Shown piece by piece: positions 56,088 through 63,092 of a stretch of 63,092 bases of DNA. The DNA is from Pseudomonadota bacterium. Lineage in GTDB: Bacteria > Pseudomonadota > Alphaproteobacteria > SHVZ01. Where the stretch lies: contig JACQAG010000071.1 in NCBI GenBank assembly GCA_016195085.1, forward strand, positions 1 through 63,092, read 5' to 3'. Every line of letters begins with the position of its first letter. Within the stretch, counting starts at the first letter, position 1. The translations under genes and the position numbers were made by a program. The notes under the pieces were generated by a model, which saw nothing but the letters and a program-made list of their open reading frames with translations, was not told the origin of the DNA and ran no database searches.

Positions 56088-59000
56088 CTACAGCGTGCTG
56101 CCGCCGTCGCCGACGACGGTGAACGGCGCCCAGAAGATCGGATGGGCGTAGGAGAACAACGGCGCTTTGCTCTCGGGGTCGAGATATCCCGGACCGTCGA
56201 TCAGCGCCAGCTCGGCCTGGCGCATCGCCTCGCCACGTCCAAGCCCGGCCTTCTCCGCCTGGCGGCGGAAGAGATCGGTGGTCAGCGTCTTGGCCGAGCT
56301 CGTCTCCACCGGCCAATTGGAGACCAGGAGCGCCCTTGTGCCGGCATAGAAGAAGGCGCGGCCGAGGCCGGAGACGGCCTCAGCACCGGCGCCGGCGGCG
56401 GTCGCGGTGTTGCAGGCCGACAGCACCACCCAGTCGGCGTTGAGCTTGAGGCCGAGGATCTTCTCCATGGTCAAGAGGCCATCGCCGTCGATCTTCGCCA
56501 CCGCCGGCGAAGACAGCGCCAGGGCCGGCTGTGTCAGCCCATTGAGATCGCCCGGCACCAATCCATGGGTGGCGAAGACGATGATGCGACGGTCGGCGAG
56601 GTTCATCGACCGGACGGTCTTCTCATTGGCCGCGGCGCCGAGGATCACGTCCTTGGTGAGATCGGCGTTGAGCGCCAGCGCGATGTTGCGGACCTCCTCG
56701 GCGGTGTCCGGCAACCGCGGCAGCATCGCCAGCTCGGCGCTGTTCACACCTTGGGTCGCCGGCGCGCTGCGACGCACCAAGGGAATGCCGCGGGTCTGCA
56801 GCTGCGCGGTCTTGGGCGCCCCCCGCGTCTTCAGCGGGCCGGGGTTGGCCTCGGCCAGCGCCTGCTCGGCCTGCTCCGGGCTGAACCAAGGGTCGCCGAA
56901 GCCGATGAAGGCGATGCGCGCACCCTTGGGCGGCGGCAGCGAGCGCAAGGTCGCCAGCGAGGCAACCGAAGGCAGCTGGGTCACCGCCACCTTGCGCACC
57001 AGGAACGGCACCGCCTTGTAGTGCGCAAAGGGCAGCTTGGTCTTCGCCGGCAGCTTGATGGGCTCGGTCACCAAGAGCGCCATCGGCAGCTGGCCCAGCG
57101 CCTTGTGCGGCACGAACATCAGGCCCTCCGCCTTCCCCCAGCCGGTCTCGATCGGCTTCAAGATGAGCTCGTAGAGCTTGTAGGCCATCGCCAGGTCGAA
57201 CTCCGGCACCTCCTCCAGGCTGGACGCGTTCGGATCCAGCGCCTTGCGGAGTTCGGAGACCATGGAAGCGATCTCGCGATCGCCGACCTTGGCCGCGGCG
57301 AAGGCGGCCGAGCCTTGTTGCGGGATCGCCCAGACGAACAAACGCTCCTCGCCAGCATAGGTGGCAATCAGCGCCTCGCCGGGACGGAGGCTTTTTTGCG
57401 CCTGCTCGATCGTCGCCGGTCTCGGGTCGATCAGGTTCACGTAGTCCGGGAAGCTTCGCTCGATCTCCTCCCTGAGCCGCGCGCGCGCATCTCGGAGCTG
57501 ATCGATCTGCTCCCGCAGTTTCTGCACCGCCGCTTGATCCTGCTCGTTCGTCGGCAGGGATAGAACATTAGTCAGCATGCCCTGCAGAGCAGCGATCTGC
57601 TTTTGCGCATCCTGCTCGCGTCGTACCAGCTCGGCCAGCGCCGGATCGGAGGCGGCGCCGCGGGCGGCGGAGGCGGCGAGTGCCCGCTCAACCGATCGAC
57701 CGCGCACCGCCTCGGCCAGGTGGAAGGTTTCAGCGGCGGCCGCCGCACCCTTAGAGTCGGCAAGCAGGCCCAAATAAGCCTCGATGATCTTCTGCGCCCG
57801 TCGATCGCGCTCGGCAATCGAGCCGCCGGCCTCGCTATTGTCATTGGCCTCGCGCGAGGCCGAGGTCAGGATCGGTAGCGCCATCAAGAACTCCTTGAGC
57901 GCTCGATCATTTTGCCCGGCACGCACCAGCGCCGCGCCGAGCCAGCCCCGCGCCTCGGCGGTCGCATAGGCCTTCTCGCCCAGCCGTTTCGCATTTTGCT
58001 CGGCGACGTTTTGGATGATGCGGATCGCCTCTTCGCTCCGATTGGATCGAAGCAAGACCAGGCCATAGTTAATGTTGCCATCGAGGAACTTTCGGCGCAG
58101 CCCCGGCTCATCGCCGATGTCCCGTTCGAGCGCCGCATAGGTCGCCTGCGTCGCCTCGTGCTTGCCTGCGGCCGACTGCGATTGGGCGATCCAGCGCCTT
58201 GTGTTGGCGAGGAAACCGGATCCCTTGCCATGCCCGAGATTTTCCAGGATGTCGCGAGCGGCGTCGGCCAGACGCTCGGCCTCGGCATAGCGTCCCTGCT
58301 CGTACAGCACTTGCGCGAGAAGGAGAATTTCGGTTGCGCTCTCGGCGGCGTAGCGTCCCCGTCGTTCAAGCCGGCCCAACAGCGAGCGGCGTGACTCGGC
58401 CTCGGCCTCGATGAGCCGACCCTGGGACATCAACGACAGGGTGAGGCCGTTGAGATAGCGGTCCTGCGCATCGGCGAAGGTTCCAGGCGCAACCGGGAAC
58501 TGGCCTTCGTTTGGAAGCACATTCTTCGTGAAGAGAGACAAGGCCTCGCGCAAGGTCGCTTCGGCCTCGGCGTAGCGACCGGTGTCTTGCGCGATCTGGG
58601 CGCGAGCTGAAAGAAGCGTCGTGCGCGCAGCATCGCGCATGTGTGTCGGCACCCGCTGCAAGTTGGAATAGGTACCCATAAACGCCTCTGCCTGAGCCAT
58701 GGCGTCGCTCGCCATAGCAAGCTGCCCAAGGGTCAGCGCGAGCGAGATCTTTTGAGCATATAAGCCAAAGAGGGCGGTCAATTGTTGCGACTGGGCCATG
58801 AGCCGCAGACGCTCGTCGACCAGCTCGAGGGCCGCCCTGGTATCGCCTGCGCCTTGAAGGGCGCCGGTCAGTTGCTGCAGGTAAGCCCCCAGCAAGGCAG
58901 GCGCGATATTCGCGCGCTTGCCAAGTTCGGAGGCCTGCTTCAGGTCCGCGAGCCGTTGCTGCGAGCGGCCGATCTCGCCCGCGGCGAGTCCGCGTTGGAA

Positions 59001-59384
59001 ATAGAAATCCGCCAGCGCCGCCGGTTCCAACCCCTTGGGCGGTTCCTTATCCGCCGCCGCAAAGTTGGCGGCACGCTTGGCGGGGTCCGGCTTCTGCTTG
59101 TCGAGGATCTCGGTGATATCCGCGATCGTCCGCGGCGGCGCCATGAGCGGTGCTGCGGGGCTGCTCGCCTCGGGCTGCGGCACCGGGCTTGCCGGCGGAG
59201 GCGACGTCTTGCGAACGGGCGCGGGTGAGGCGGGGGATGGCGCGACCGATCCGGCCGCGTCTCCGGCCGCGAGTTGCGGCATCGGCAAGAGCGCCTCAGC
59301 ACCGGCGAGGCGCAGGGTCCCGGCGGCCAGCACCAAAAGCACCAGCACGGCCAGACGGATTGAGTAGGCGATCGGACGGTGCAT
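56088..59384 (-). CDS. CHAT-domain protease with TPR repeats
   Basis: A 1098-residue protein. It has an N-terminal signal peptide or anchor (about 9-29), then a Pro/Ser-rich linker (50-85). About ten TPR-like helical hairpins follow (120-560, for example GRYAEAEATLREALSLF). A coiled-coil (610-690) leads to a C-terminal CHAT domain (770-1095). The caspase-like dyad is intact: H940 in VFATHG and C991 in VVLSACNTA. CHAT proteins are cysteine peptidases of clan CD, often activated by partners bound to the TPRs. Substrate and trigger are unknown. Confidence 0.9.
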   Translation of the reverse strand: MHRPIAYSIRLAVLVLLVLAAGTLRLAGAEALLPMPQLAAGDAAGSVAPSPASPAPVRKTSPPPASPVPQPEASSPAAPLMAPPRTIADITEILDKQKPDPAKRAANFAAADKEPPKGLEPAALADFYFQRGLAAGEIGRSQQRLADLKQASELGKRANIAPALLGAYLQQLTGALQGAGDTRAALELVDERLRLMAQSQQLTALFGLYAQKISLALTLGQLAMASDAMAQAEAFMGTYSNLQRVPTHMRDAARTTLLSARAQIAQDTGRYAEAEATLREALSLFTKNVLPNEGQFPVAPGTFADAQDRYLNGLTLSLMSQGRLIEAEAESRRSLLGRLERRGRYAAESATEILLLAQVLYEQGRYAEAERLADAARDILENLGHGKGSGFLANTRRWIAQSQSAAGKHEATQATYAALERDIGDEPGLRRKFLDGNINYGLVLLRSNRSEEAIRIIQNVAEQNAKRLGEKAYATAEARGWLGAALVRAGQNDRALKEFLMALPILTSASREANDNSEAGGSIAERDRRAQKIIEAYLGLLADSKGAAAAAETFHLAEAVRGRSVERALAASAARGAASDPALAELVRREQDAQKQIAALQGMLTNVLSLPTNEQDQAAVQKLREQIDQLRDARARLREEIERSFPDYVNLIDPRPATIEQAQKSLRPGEALIATYAGEERLFVWAIPQQGSAAFAAAKVGDREIASMVSELRKALDPNASSLEEVPEFDLAMAYKLYELILKPIETGWGKAEGLMFVPHKALGQLPMALLVTEPIKLPAKTKLPFAHYKAVPFLVRKVAVTQLPSVASLATLRSLPPPKGARIAFIGFGDPWFSPEQAEQALAEANPGPLKTRGAPKTAQLQTRGIPLVRRSAPATQGVNSAELAMLPRLPDTAEEVRNIALALNADLTKDVILGAAANEKTVRSMNLADRRIIVFATHGLVPGDLNGLTQPALALSSPAVAKIDGDGLLTMEKILGLKLNADWVVLSACNTATAAGAGAEAVSGLGRAFFYAGTRALLVSNWPVETSSAKTLTTDLFRRQAEKAGLGRGEAMRQAELALIDGPGYLDPESKAPLFSYAHPIFWAPFTVVGDGGSTL

Positions 59385-59506
59385 TGGGCCCCCCCTGACG
59401 CCAATCTCTGCGGCTACTGTGGAATTCCGACAATACTACTCAATGCCGAGCGATCCGGCACCACGCAAATGGGGGCGCCCGTTCAGGGCGAGGGGTTAGG
59501 CCGCGC

Positions 59507-59953
59507 TCAGAGGATCTTGCGGTACTGGATGAAGCCGGAGCGGTCGCCGATGCGGTCGTAGAGCTGCATGGCGGTGTGATTGGTCTCGTGGGTCAGCCAA
59601 TAGACCCGGGAGCAGCCGCCGCTTCGCGCCAGATCGTAGACATGCTGGATGAGGCGCCTGCCGACGCCCTGGCCGCGCACCGTCTGATCGACGTAGAGAT
59701 CCTGCAGATAGCAATAGTCGCCCGTGGTCCAGCAGGAGCGGTGACGGATGTGGTGCACGATGCCGACGGCGCCGCCGTCTTGGAGGGCGATGGCGCCGCC
59801 CATAGGCTCGGCCGGATCGTTGAGCCGCGCCCAGGTGACGTCGCTCACCTCTTTGGCGATATCGACCTTGTAGAAGACCTGATAGGCCCGCCAGAGCGGA
59901 TACCAGAGGGCGTGATCGCCTTGTGCCAAGGGACGTATGGTGATGGCGGTCAT
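59507..59953 (-). CDS. GNAT family N-acetyltransferase
   Basis: A 148-residue acetyltransferase. The acetyl-CoA loop is VRGQGVGRRLIQHVYDLA, preceded by YLQDLYVDQ, and the C-terminal strand has TNHTAMQLYDRIG. The ATG at 59953 has a strong GGAGGAACG ribosome-binding site. It is 49 bp downstream of aroG on the same strand. The acceptor substrate cannot be predicted. Confidence 0.88.
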   Translation of the reverse strand: MTAITIRPLAQGDHALWYPLWRAYQVFYKVDIAKEVSDVTWARLNDPAEPMGGAIALQDGGAVGIVHHIRHRSCWTTGDYCYLQDLYVDQTVRGQGVGRRLIQHVYDLARSGGCSRVYWLTHETNHTAMQLYDRIGDRSGFIQYRKIL

Positions 59954-60002
59954 CGTTCCTCCGAATGGCGGCGGATGCGGCACACTACCGGGCAATGAAC
60001 TC

Positions 60003-61121
60003 TCAATTTCGTCTCGCAGTCTGAATCGAACGGATATTTTGACCGGGTGAAGCGGCGTTCAGGGCTCGCGACTGCTGCCGTTGTTCCACGGCCGCCGCCA
60101 GCCGTTCGAGCACTCTGACCGATGTATCCCAGCCGATACAGCCGTCAGTGATACTTTGGCCATAGACAAGCGGTCGGTCGGCGATGAGTTCCTGGCGCCC
60201 GCCCACCAGATTACTCTCCACCATGACACCGACAATGCGGCTGTCGCCCGCCTCGATCTGCTGCGACACATCTTCGATGACCCGGGGCTGCTTCTCCGGG
60301 TCCTTGGCGCTGTTGGAATGGCTAGCATCGATCATGACGACCGGAGGCAGCCCGGATCGATCCAGCTCTCCGCAAGCGGCGTTGACACTTGCTGCATCGA
60401 AGTTTGGCGTCTTGCCGCCACGCAGAATGATGTGGCAATCATCGTTGCCCTTCGTGGCCGCGATGGCAGAGCGGCCGCCTTTGGTTACGGCAAGGAAATG
60501 ATGCGGCTGCGAGGCTGACATGACCGCATCGACCGCAATCCTCACATTGCCGTCGGTTCCGTTCTTGAATCCAACCGGGCAGGAGAGGCCCGAGGCCATT
60601 TCTCGATGGATCTGGCTTTCCGTCGTGCGCGCGCCAATGGCGCCCCACCCGACGAGGTCGGCAATATATTGCGGTGTCGTCGTGTCCAGAAATTCGCAGC
60701 CGGCAGGCAAGCCCGCACCGTTGATCTCAAGCAGCAATTTGCGCGCGAGCCGCAGGCCCTTGTTGATTTCGAAGCTGCCGTCGAGGTTGGGGTCGTTGAT
60801 CAGTCCCTTCCAGCCGACGGTCGTGCGTGGCTTCTCGAAATAGACTCGCATGATGATTTCGAGCGCACCGCCTAAGCGCCGGCGCATGCCGACGAGCCGA
60901 CCCGCATAGTCGAGTGCGGCTGTCGGATCATGGATTGAGCAAGGTCCGACTACTACCGCAAGGCGGCCATCGGCACCATGCAGAATGTCGTGCAGAGCGA
61001 GACGACAGTTGGCGACCGTGCGGGTCGCCGCGTCGGTGCGCGGGAATTCATCTATGACGTCCGCGGGAGCAATGAGTTCCTTGATCTCTCGGATCCGAAC
61101 GTCATCGGTCGTGCTTGTCAC
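60003..61121 (-). CDS. aroG: 3-deoxy-7-phosphoheptulonate synthase (DAHP synthase, class I)
   Basis: A 372-residue class I DAHP synthase that condenses phosphoenolpyruvate with erythrose 4-phosphate, the entry step of the shikimate pathway. Landmarks are VVGPCSIHDP, YFEKPRTTVGWKGLINDP, GFKNGTDG, and MIDASHSNS. The start is GTG at 61121 with GAGGAGA upstream; the ATG at 61205 lies beyond the terminator and is rejected. Expression is probably governed by the Phe/Tyr attenuator at 61160-61295. Homology and leader codons suggest an isoenzyme responsive to Phe or Tyr. Confidence 0.95.
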   Translation of the reverse strand: MTSTTDDVRIREIKELIAPADVIDEFPRTDAATRTVANCRLALHDILHGADGRLAVVVGPCSIHDPTAALDYAGRLVGMRRRLGGALEIIMRVYFEKPRTTVGWKGLINDPNLDGSFEINKGLRLARKLLLEINGAGLPAGCEFLDTTTPQYIADLVGWGAIGARTTESQIHREMASGLSCPVGFKNGTDGNVRIAVDAVMSASQPHHFLAVTKGGRSAIAATKGNDDCHIILRGGKTPNFDAASVNAACGELDRSGLPPVVMIDASHSNSAKDPEKQPRVIEDVSQQIEAGDSRIVGVMVESNLVGGRQELIADRPLVYGQSITDGCIGWDTSVRVLERLAAAVEQRQQSRALNAASPGQNIRSIQTARRN

Positions 61122-61159
61122 GGTGTGGTCTCCTCGGGGTTTCACCACACCGGCGGCAC

Positions 61160-61189
61160 AAAAAAGCCGCCAGTGAGGCTGGCGGCTTT
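61160..61189 (-). terminator. Intrinsic terminator acting as attenuator of aroG
   Basis: On the minus strand an 8-bp GC stem (GCCGCCAG with CTGGCGGC), extended by three A-U pairs, has a 5-nt loop and is followed by six U. It lies between the leader peptide and the aroG GTG, so it must be bypassed for aroG to be made. The 5' arm is also complementary to a segment inside the leader peptide gene. Confidence 0.85.
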
Positions 61190-61211
61190 CGGGGTGTCTA
61201 TGCATCCAAAT

Positions 61212-61295
61212 TCAGATTGAACGCAGCCCTCCGTCCGCCGCCACTTTCGGATAGCCATAAAATCGATAGAAGCGGTTGGCGGGCACGAGGTGCAT
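61212..61295 (-). CDS. Phe/Tyr-rich attenuation leader peptide of aroG
   Basis: A 27-residue peptide with FYRFYGYP at residues 9-16. Two Phe and three Tyr fall within seven codons. It lies 26 nt upstream of the attenuator terminator and 90 nt upstream of aroG. CCGCCA in codons 5-7 can pair with TGGCGGC in codons 18-20, which in turn can pair with the 5' arm of the terminator. These are regions 1, 2 and 3 of a classical attenuator. Stalling at Phe/Tyr codons would free region 2 to form the antiterminator. Confidence 0.8.
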   Translation of the reverse strand: MHLVPANRFYRFYGYPKVAADGGLRSI

Positions 61296-61302
61296 GCCGC
61301 AG

Positions 61303-61331
61303 ACACTAGTCGGGAAGCGCCATCGTGTAAA
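61303..61331 (-). promoter_or_regulatory. Candidate promoter of the aroG leader
   Basis: Minus strand: TTTACA (61326-61331), a 17-nt spacer, then TAGTGT (61303-61308). The predicted start would fall at or next to the leader-peptide ATG, implying a leaderless transcript. The -10 match is modest. Confidence 0.4.
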
Positions 61332-61439
61332 CACCCGCCGATGCGCTCCGCGCCGCTCTTGGCGCTCCCATGCCCTTGCGTTACGGGCGCGGACCGGCTC
61401 GAATGATCCGAACGGTGATCGCCCTGGAGGATAGCCGGC

Positions 61440-61766
61440 ATGGATCCCAAGACCAGAACCCGCGTCGGCGATCTCGACCTGCTGCCGTTTCCGCCGGGGC
61501 GTCTGTCGAAGCAGGCCTTCGATACCGGCGCGATCGAGCTGCGGCACTACGCGCCCAAGGGCGTCGACAATCAGGTGCCCCATGACCAGGACGAGCTCTA
61601 TGTGGTGATCAGCGGCACCGGCTCCTTCAAGCGGGCGGGCGAGACGGTCCCGTTCGCGGCCGGCGACGTGCTGTTCGCCGCCGCCCATGAAGAACACCGC
61701 TTTCTGAATTTCTCCGAGGATTTCCAGACCTGGGTGCTGTTCTACGGGCCGAAGCGGGCGAAATGA
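61440..61766 (+). CDS. Single-domain cupin protein
   Basis: A 108-residue cupin. Metal-binding residues are visible in NQVPHDQDELYVVISGTG and the later HEEHRFLNF. The first His pair is separated from Glu by the expected distance. GGAGGATAG precedes the ATG. It diverges from the aroG leader. It is unrelated in detail to the tandem cupin at 33905. The substrate is unknown. Confidence 0.82.
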   Translation: MDPKTRTRVGDLDLLPFPPGRLSKQAFDTGAIELRHYAPKGVDNQVPHDQDELYVVISGTGSFKRAGETVPFAAGDVLFAAAHEEHRFLNFSEDFQTWVLFYGPKRAK

Positions 61767-61861
61767 GCAAGCAGGCACCGCCGGCGCGCGGCAATCCCGG
61801 CCGGTATCCGAGACCTGCTAGACTGGCAGCGACCATGGCGGGCAGAGGGGAGAACTCAACG

Positions 61862-61894
61862 ATGCTCGAGGCCGCGCGCGGGTGCGATGCATGA
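61862..61894 (+). CDS. Possible 10-codon upstream ORF coupled to aldolase
   Basis: ATG at 61862 is preceded by a strong GAGGGGAGAA ribosome-binding site and encodes MLEAARGCDA. It ends at a TGA that overlaps the ATG of the class II aldolase (ATGA at 61891-61894). The aldolase start itself has no good ribosome-binding site. A translational-coupling role is inferred from this arrangement alone. Confidence 0.4.
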   Translation: MLEAARGCDA

Positions 61895-62619
61895 CCGGAT
61901 CGGGGGACGCCGGCACCTTGCCCGCCTCTGATCTGATCGACGAGCTCGTCATCGGCAACAAGATCCTGTCGCACCAGAAGGTGGTCGACGCCTTCGGGCA
62001 TCTGAGCGTGCGTCACGACAAAGATCCAACCCGGTACCTGATGTCCCGCCACCTGGCGCCGGGCCTGGTGACGGAAGCCGACATCGTGACCTTCGATCTC
62101 GACAGCAATCCGATCGTCGACAAGGGCCAGCGCTATTACAGCGAGCGCTACATTCACGGCGAGATCTACAAGGCGCGGCCCGAGATCGTCGCCGTGGTGC
62201 ATTGCCATGCCCGCGAGCTCATTCCCTATGGTGCTACGGGAACGCTGCTGCGCCCGATCTTTCACATGAGCGGCTTTCTCGGCGCCGGCGTGCCGATCTT
62301 CGAGATCCGCGAGGCCGCCGGCATGACCAACATGCTGGTGAGGACGCCGGCCTTGGGCAAGGCTCTCGCCAAATCCCTCGGCGACAAGCCCGTGGTGCTG
62401 ATGCGCGGTCATGGCGCCACCATGGTCGGCAAGTCGATCAAGCAGGTGGTCTATCGCTCGATCTACGCATCGGTGAACGCCCAGCTGCAGATGGACGCGG
62501 TCAAGCTGGGCCAGCCGATCTTTCTCGCCGATGAAGAAGCAAAGAAAGCGGCGGAGGCCAATGACGGCTCGCTCGACCGCGCCTGGAACTATTGGAAGCA
62601 TGAGGCATTGGGAGAATGA
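61891..62619 (+). CDS. Class II aldolase/adducin family protein
   Basis: A 242-residue protein with the class II aldolase fold. Zinc-ligand histidines are in VVHCHAREL and the later VLMRGHGATMVG, and the N-terminal GHLSVRHD supplies the substrate loop. Relatives include fuculose-phosphate aldolases and hydroxy-acid or decarboxylase-like enzymes of aromatic catabolism. The substrate is not evident. The start at 61891 is coupled to a short upstream ORF; GTG 61882 is an alternative. Confidence 0.88.
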   Translation: MTGSGDAGTLPASDLIDELVIGNKILSHQKVVDAFGHLSVRHDKDPTRYLMSRHLAPGLVTEADIVTFDLDSNPIVDKGQRYYSERYIHGEIYKARPEIVAVVHCHARELIPYGATGTLLRPIFHMSGFLGAGVPIFEIREAAGMTNMLVRTPALGKALAKSLGDKPVVLMRGHGATMVGKSIKQVVYRSIYASVNAQLQMDAVKLGQPIFLADEEAKKAAEANDGSLDRAWNYWKHEALGE

Positions 62620-62649
62620 CGATCGACGTATACTGGTCGATATAGAGAT

Positions 62650-62735
62650 CCCTCACCCTCCCACGCGAGCGCGTGGGCCCCTCCCTCTCCCGCGATGCGG
62701 GAGAGGGTGCCGAGCGTAAGCGAGGCGGGTGAGGG
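62650..62735. repeat. Intergenic inverted repeat with nested hairpins
   Basis: Outer arms CCCTCACC and GGTGAGGG (62650-62657, 62728-62735) enclose two perfect hairpins: CCCACGCG-AG-CGCGTGGG and CCCTCTCCCGC-GAT-GCGGGAGAGGG. It differs from the G-rich family at 20973. It separates the aldolase gene from the next gene and may terminate transcription. Confidence 0.75.
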
Positions 62736-62756
62736 TCGGCTCGGGGAGGTTCAACA

Positions 62757-63092
62757 ATGCGATCGATGCTCGGCGTGACGATGCTTGCCGGCGCAGTCTT
62801 GGCGGCAACGCTCGGCGGTGCCGTGCCGGGAGCGACCGCAGCCGATCCGCCGAAGCCATGGCGCCACGGCCTCCTGGAGGCGAAGAGCGACGCCGGCATC
62901 ATCTTGATGCCGAGCCGCGGCGGCTTTGCCGTAAAACAGGGGCTGGCGCTGGAGATCGTACAGATCAAGAGTGACATCACCGGCCTGCAGGCTTTGCTCG
63001 CCGGCGAGCTGGATAGCTTCGAGGGCGGCATCGGCGGCTCGATCAAGGTTGCCGCGCGGGGCGTCGATGTGAAGTTCGTCGGTTGCTTCTGG
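62757..63092 (+). CDS. ABC transporter substrate-binding protein (5' part)
   Basis: The first 112 codons of a gene that runs off the window. A signal peptide (about 1-27, LGVTMLAGAVLAATLGG) is followed by a mature start DPPKPWRHGLLEAKSDAGI. The SRGGFAVKQGLALEIVQIKS segment resembles NitT/TauT (NMT1/THI5-like) binding proteins. Permease and ATPase genes would be expected downstream, outside the window. AGGTTCAACA gives a moderate ribosome-binding site. Confidence 0.75.
   Translation, partial: MRSMLGVTMLAGAVLAATLGGAVPGATAADPPKPWRHGLLEAKSDAGIILMPSRGGFAVKQGLALEIVQIKSDITGLQALLAGELDSFEGGIGGSIKVAARGVDVKFVGCFW

Follow-up and report, generated by a model that had tools for sequence, protein, structure and literature searches.

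Several described leader-peptide systems resemble the aroG leader reported here. In C. glutamicum, control of DAHP synthase (aroF) by the Phe/Tyr leader AroR is established, according to the part of PMC11802643 that reports Neshat et al. 2014. In that account ribosome stalling at Phe/Tyr codons controls DAHP synthase, as is proposed for aroG, and Phe limitation, not Tyr limitation, is reported to matter. The AroR leader peptide contains F-Y-F (PMC4046766). Compared by description, AroR differs from the aroG leader in being actinobacterial and in having the shorter motif.

The trpL leaders of S. meliloti and E. coli, like the pheL-pheA and pheST leaders of E. coli, share the ribosome-mediated design, with hairpins that exclude one another. 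They carry Trp or Phe codons only and belong to other genes, whereas the aroG leader carries Phe and Tyr codons, often with Trp in relatives. The motif uORFC-13-1 upstream of aroF in Acholeplasma has been proposed to be a Phe-dependent uORF (PMC8632094). Like the aroG leader, it is a uORF ahead of a terminator and a DAHP synthase gene. It differs in structure and is confined to Acholeplasma and environmental sequences. A Tyr attenuator was proposed for aroF of E. coli/Shewanella (Camakaris 1980, cited in PMC2659441 and PMC8632094). It concerns the same enzyme step, and attenuation is hypothesized there; the citing passages describe no confirmed leader peptide, and the likeness to the aroG leader is one of description.

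The searched literature contained no paper on a proteobacterial aroG leader; an earlier prediction is possible in Panina 2001 or Vitreschak 2004. Rfam 15 gave no leader or attenuator family above the gathering score in the stretch 58000 to 63092 or in 16 related loci. The matches in the locus and its 16 relatives were glycine riboswitches only, and they lay elsewhere. The mechanism of the device is already known (trp/phe; AroR of C. glutamicum), and its use at aroG is highly likely from the features described below. We suggest tentatively, with confidence a little short of even, that the loci form an uncatalogued family of alpha-, beta- and gammaproteobacteria, which moves with type-I aroG and in which promoter and leader start are locked together, giving leaderless translation. 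The device would add the first reaction of the shikimate pathway, in a broad range of proteobacteria, to the processes under ribosome-mediated attenuation.

Leader, terminator and aroG in the window

The window is the whole stretch of DNA analysed (63,092 nucleotides). The leader, the terminator and aroG are on its minus strand. The leader peptide ORF (MHLVPANRFYRFYGYPKVAADGGLRSI, then a stop codon) occupies 61212 to 61295, with the ATG at 61295-61293 and the stop at 61214-61212, and has 27 codons. Residues F9 Y10 R11 F12 Y13 G14 Y15 include five Phe/Tyr in seven, and F9, Y10, F12, Y13 and Y15 are the putative control codons. Such clustering of end-product codons in a short translatable leader ORF is typical of trp/phe attenuators.

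An intrinsic terminator lies between the leader ORF and aroG, again as in trp/phe attenuators, and it covaries among relatives. The hairpin is AAGCCGCCAG-CCTCA-CTGGCGGCTT followed by T (61188-61160), with its stem at 61188-61164. Region 3, the 5' arm (AAGCCGCCAG, 61179 to 61188; core segment GCCGCCAG, 61186-61179), can pair with region 2 or region 4. Region 4, the 3' arm (CTGGCGGCTT, 61164 to 61173; core segment CTGGCGGC, 61173-61166), is followed by the U6 tract (61160 to 61165). Region 2 (GTGGCGGCGG, 61235 to 61244; core TGGCGGC, 61243-61237) starts 6 nt past the last Tyr codon. Region 1 (CCGCCA, 61277 to 61282) can pair with region 2. An earlier sequence-only reading of this DNA had described the 27-codon ORF with F-Y-R-F-Y-G-Y, a terminator and then aroG, together with four complementary segments and a U6 tract. 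Direct reading confirmed the ORF, terminator and gene order to the base and found all four segments where they had been placed.

RNA folding gave a 12-bp terminator stem, with a z score of -3.7 for the whole stretch. The hairpin was also recovered by our own terminator scan across aroG loci. A simple consensus terminator scan of the window did not report it, probably an artefact that arises because the stem pairs into the T run. Constrained folding with a ribosome on F9 or Y13 and the polymerase just past region 3, before region 4 exists, gave the 2:3 pairing. When the ribosome was placed at the stop codon instead, 1:2 plus the terminator hairpin resulted. With the ribosome at Y15 the 2:3 pairing was not favoured, so Y15 may contribute little. 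The terminator wins in full-length minimum-energy folds; the switch must therefore rest on timing, like other attenuators of the trp/phe class.

The gene under putative control belongs to the pathway of the amino acids that would be sensed, as expected of an attenuator. It is aroG, encoding a type-I DAHP synthase, at 60003 to 61121. The product is an equivalog of TIGR00034 (aroFGH; 520 bits, cut-off 173). The gene starts at a GTG behind a Shine-Dalgarno sequence, GAGGAG (-8.4 kcal/mol). An open frame of 400 codons also runs from the in-frame ATG at 61205, upstream of the hairpin, and a start there would put the hairpin inside the coding sequence. This is very improbable, and we rejected it. 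Homology to relatives begins near GTG 61121 (matches from residue 1-5), at the good Shine-Dalgarno sequence. The extension would code through the terminator and the U tract, and relatives carry the same terminator outside the gene.

We scanned the window for ORFs that start with ATG, are 12-45 codons long and have five or more aromatic residues within a run of eight. One was found in the 63 kb. It was the aroG leader, with the terminator after it. In 20 dinucleotide-shuffled versions of the window the mean number of such ORFs was 0.05, and no version had one with a terminator. High-GC genomes commonly contain terminators of the GCCGCC/GGCGGC type, and the pair could in principle be a chance aromatic-rich ORF beside the terminator of an upstream transcription unit. 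We consider this extremely improbable. The upstream cupin gene is divergent, the shuffles did not yield the arrangement, and its retention in 79 of 94 homologous loci already contradicts chance.

Conservation and pairing across aroG loci

The locus set comprised the window, 80 aroG relatives and 13 loci from an even class sample plus relatives (n=94). An aromatic-rich leader ORF with an intrinsic terminator was present at the same position in 79 of the 94 type-I aroG loci, from alpha-, beta- and gammaproteobacteria. The sequence-only reading had named missing leader codons and hairpins in close relatives as grounds for dropping it; they are conserved in three proteobacterial classes, and the 2:3 and 3:4 pairings covary. 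The alphaproteobacteria with the device include Inquilinus, Kaistia, Devosia, Bauldia, Methylosinus, Rhizobium, Leisingera, Caulobacter and Phenylobacterium. Betaproteobacteria are represented by Advenella, Paraburkholderia, Massilia and others, and gammaproteobacteria by Stenotrophomonas, Pseudoxanthomonas, Dyella and Rhodanobacter. Loci without the device were mostly from planctomycetes or from distant gamma- or betaproteobacteria, or lay too near a contig end (L084). One locus (L087) has the terminator and no leader accepted by the filter.

Leaders had a mean length of 25.7 codons, and the leader ATG was mostly 165-230 nt upstream of aroG. The usual alphaproteobacterial motif resembles YFWYFSYP. 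The window has FYRFYGYP, with Arg in place of Trp. Trp accompanies Phe and Tyr in 54 of the 79 leaders and is absent from 25, the window among them. Per leader, frame 0 held 6.3 aromatics and the two remaining frames 2.5 and 2.2, a bias that is partly built in by the choice of leader ORFs for aromatic content. The aromatics are encoded by synonymous codons (TTT/TTC and TAT/TAC). Their placement in frame and the synonymous codon use point to selection on the leader peptide.

The median distance from the last aromatic codon to the start of region 2 (core TGGCGG) is 8 nt, and about 42 nt separate the end of region 2 from region 3. Formation of 2:3 excludes the terminator, as in trp/phe attenuators. 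The 2:3 duplex had a mean energy of -16.0 kcal/mol versus -11.6 kcal/mol with shuffled leader tails. In a swap test (n=75), which used the 36 nt downstream of the aromatic codons in every locus and clades assigned by hand, own 2:3 pairs averaged -17.6 kcal/mol versus -16.5 kcal/mol with region 3 swapped within clades. Own 3:4 pairs averaged -19.8 kcal/mol versus -17.5 kcal/mol when swapped. For both pairings 0/5000 permutations were as good as the own pairing, a count that is not a strict probability because the loci are related.

The sequence-only reading had treated 1:2, 2:3 and 3:4 alike as possible pairings. The covariation bears out 2:3 and 3:4. The 1:2 pairing can form in the window (-17.7 kcal/mol), but its z score of -1.0 is not clearly above chance. 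As a putative protector hairpin it is only weakly conserved in the family (mean z -0.7).

The Rhizobium leaders (L040, L045, L048, L050, L054, L056, L061) encode a different peptide (YASRFYSYRCSQRRRACA and like), with SQRRRACA after the aromatic cluster. Their 2:3 pairing barely exceeds the shuffled level. Together with the different peptide, this indicates that the branch deviates.

Promoter-like elements, predicted leaderless start and proposed mechanism

A promoter-like sequence was found upstream of the leader at 61303 to 61331 (minus strand), from its sequence and its homologous position. It consists of TTTACA (61331-61326) and TAGTGT (61308-61303) with a 17-nt spacer. It is far from consensus, yet it is placed where relatives have theirs. 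A consensus promoter scan of the window did not report it. Transcription is predicted to start on the leader ATG or immediately beside it.

Alphaproteobacterial relatives have GTGACA/TCGACA and CTATAT/GCTAGC-like elements upstream of the leader ATG. Among 50 alphaproteobacterial loci, the -10 element begins at -13 or -12 from the ATG in 36, TGACA/CGACA occurs in the -35 area in 41, and C is found at -1 in 43. Paired -35/-10 elements at the leader distance were present in 47/78 of all loci versus 0.3 in shuffles, for a pattern defined after viewing the sequences. The pattern is less clear in betaproteobacteria. No Shine-Dalgarno sequence above the shuffled level was detected before the leader ATG (-1.0 versus -1.1 kcal/mol); the aroG start averages -5.5 kcal/mol. 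Transcripts in relatives are thus predicted to begin on the leader AUG or directly beside it.

The nearly leaderless transcript had been called unusual for a ribosome-sensing device. The sequence features that predict such a start are conserved in alphaproteobacteria, and the AroR leader of C. glutamicum is reportedly leaderless as well. The trpL RNA of S. meliloti starts with the leader AUG, as predicted for the aroG leader (PMC7298713, PMC10117765), and this precedent answers the surprise. If the start is as predicted, the first ribosome, loaded at the 5' end, would fix the ribosome-polymerase distance that the switch needs. The 79 loci provide a large comparative set on which to study why leaderless starts are so frequent among attenuator leader peptides.

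The device is very probably a ribosome-mediated transcription attenuator of the trp/phe class that controls aroG. The sequence-only reading had proposed this design, and the conserved leader and terminator and the covariation of 2:3 and 3:4 support it. Transcription would begin at or near the leader AUG, and the ribosome would load without a Shine-Dalgarno sequence. If charged tRNA-Phe or tRNA-Tyr ran short, the ribosome would stall within FYRFYGY. Region 2 would then be free to pair with region 3, no terminator would form, and aroG would be transcribed. When both tRNAs are plentiful, the ribosome would reach the stop codon, and region 2 would be either covered or held in a pairing (with region 1 in the window copy). 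With region 2 unavailable, the 3:4 terminator would form and transcription would end before aroG. The window stop codon is 20 nt past region 2. A ribosome there would not itself cover region 2, so sequestration by region 1 or timing would be needed; a protective role of 1:2 is what we infer for this copy.

The terminator could instead be constitutive and partial and yield a small RNA. The short RNA or peptide would then act mainly in trans, in the manner of rnTrpL/peTrpL, and attenuation in cis would be secondary. Attenuation would indeed yield a leaderless RNA of about 136 nt, and rnTrpL/peTrpL of S. meliloti have documented trans functions (PMC7298713). This reading is unlikely, as conservation is focused on the codons for aromatic residues and on the 2:3 and 3:4 pairings, which exclude each other; a trans-acting RNA would not need these. 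A trans-acting role is also compatible with attenuation and does not exclude it.

Genome context and distribution

Besides the putatively attenuated type-I enzyme, this genome encodes a second DAHP synthase, of type II (L083, G000:C35:6003-7316; PF01474, 704 bits). A comparable aromatic leader with a terminator was not found upstream of the type-II gene. Type-I aroG was present in 14/386 sampled genomes of the class, this genome included, and in 0/6 other genomes of the same family. Its patchy distribution in the class and its absence from the six same-family genomes suggest that aroG and the attenuator were probably gained together by horizontal transfer. Loss of aroG elsewhere is a possible alternative. 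Under joint transfer, the regulation appears to move together with the gene.

A small cupin gene (61440-61766, plus strand) is divergent from the attenuator. Cupin genes 69-75% identical to it occur in 3/6 same-family genomes with no aroG beside them; aroG, aldolase and GNAT genes were not found in those flanks (up to 1.5 kb). A GNAT acetyltransferase gene (59507-59953, minus strand) lies about 50 nt downstream of aroG. It may be cotranscribed with aroG under the attenuator. Its homologs in same-family genomes are weak (at most 48% identity).

The nearest aroG sequences come from Inquilinus and from a record labelled Mycobacterium sp. KBS0706; the two group together. The aroG locus of the latter (L002) closely resembles the one in Inquilinus limosus (L003), so the record probably carries a wrong name or is contaminated.
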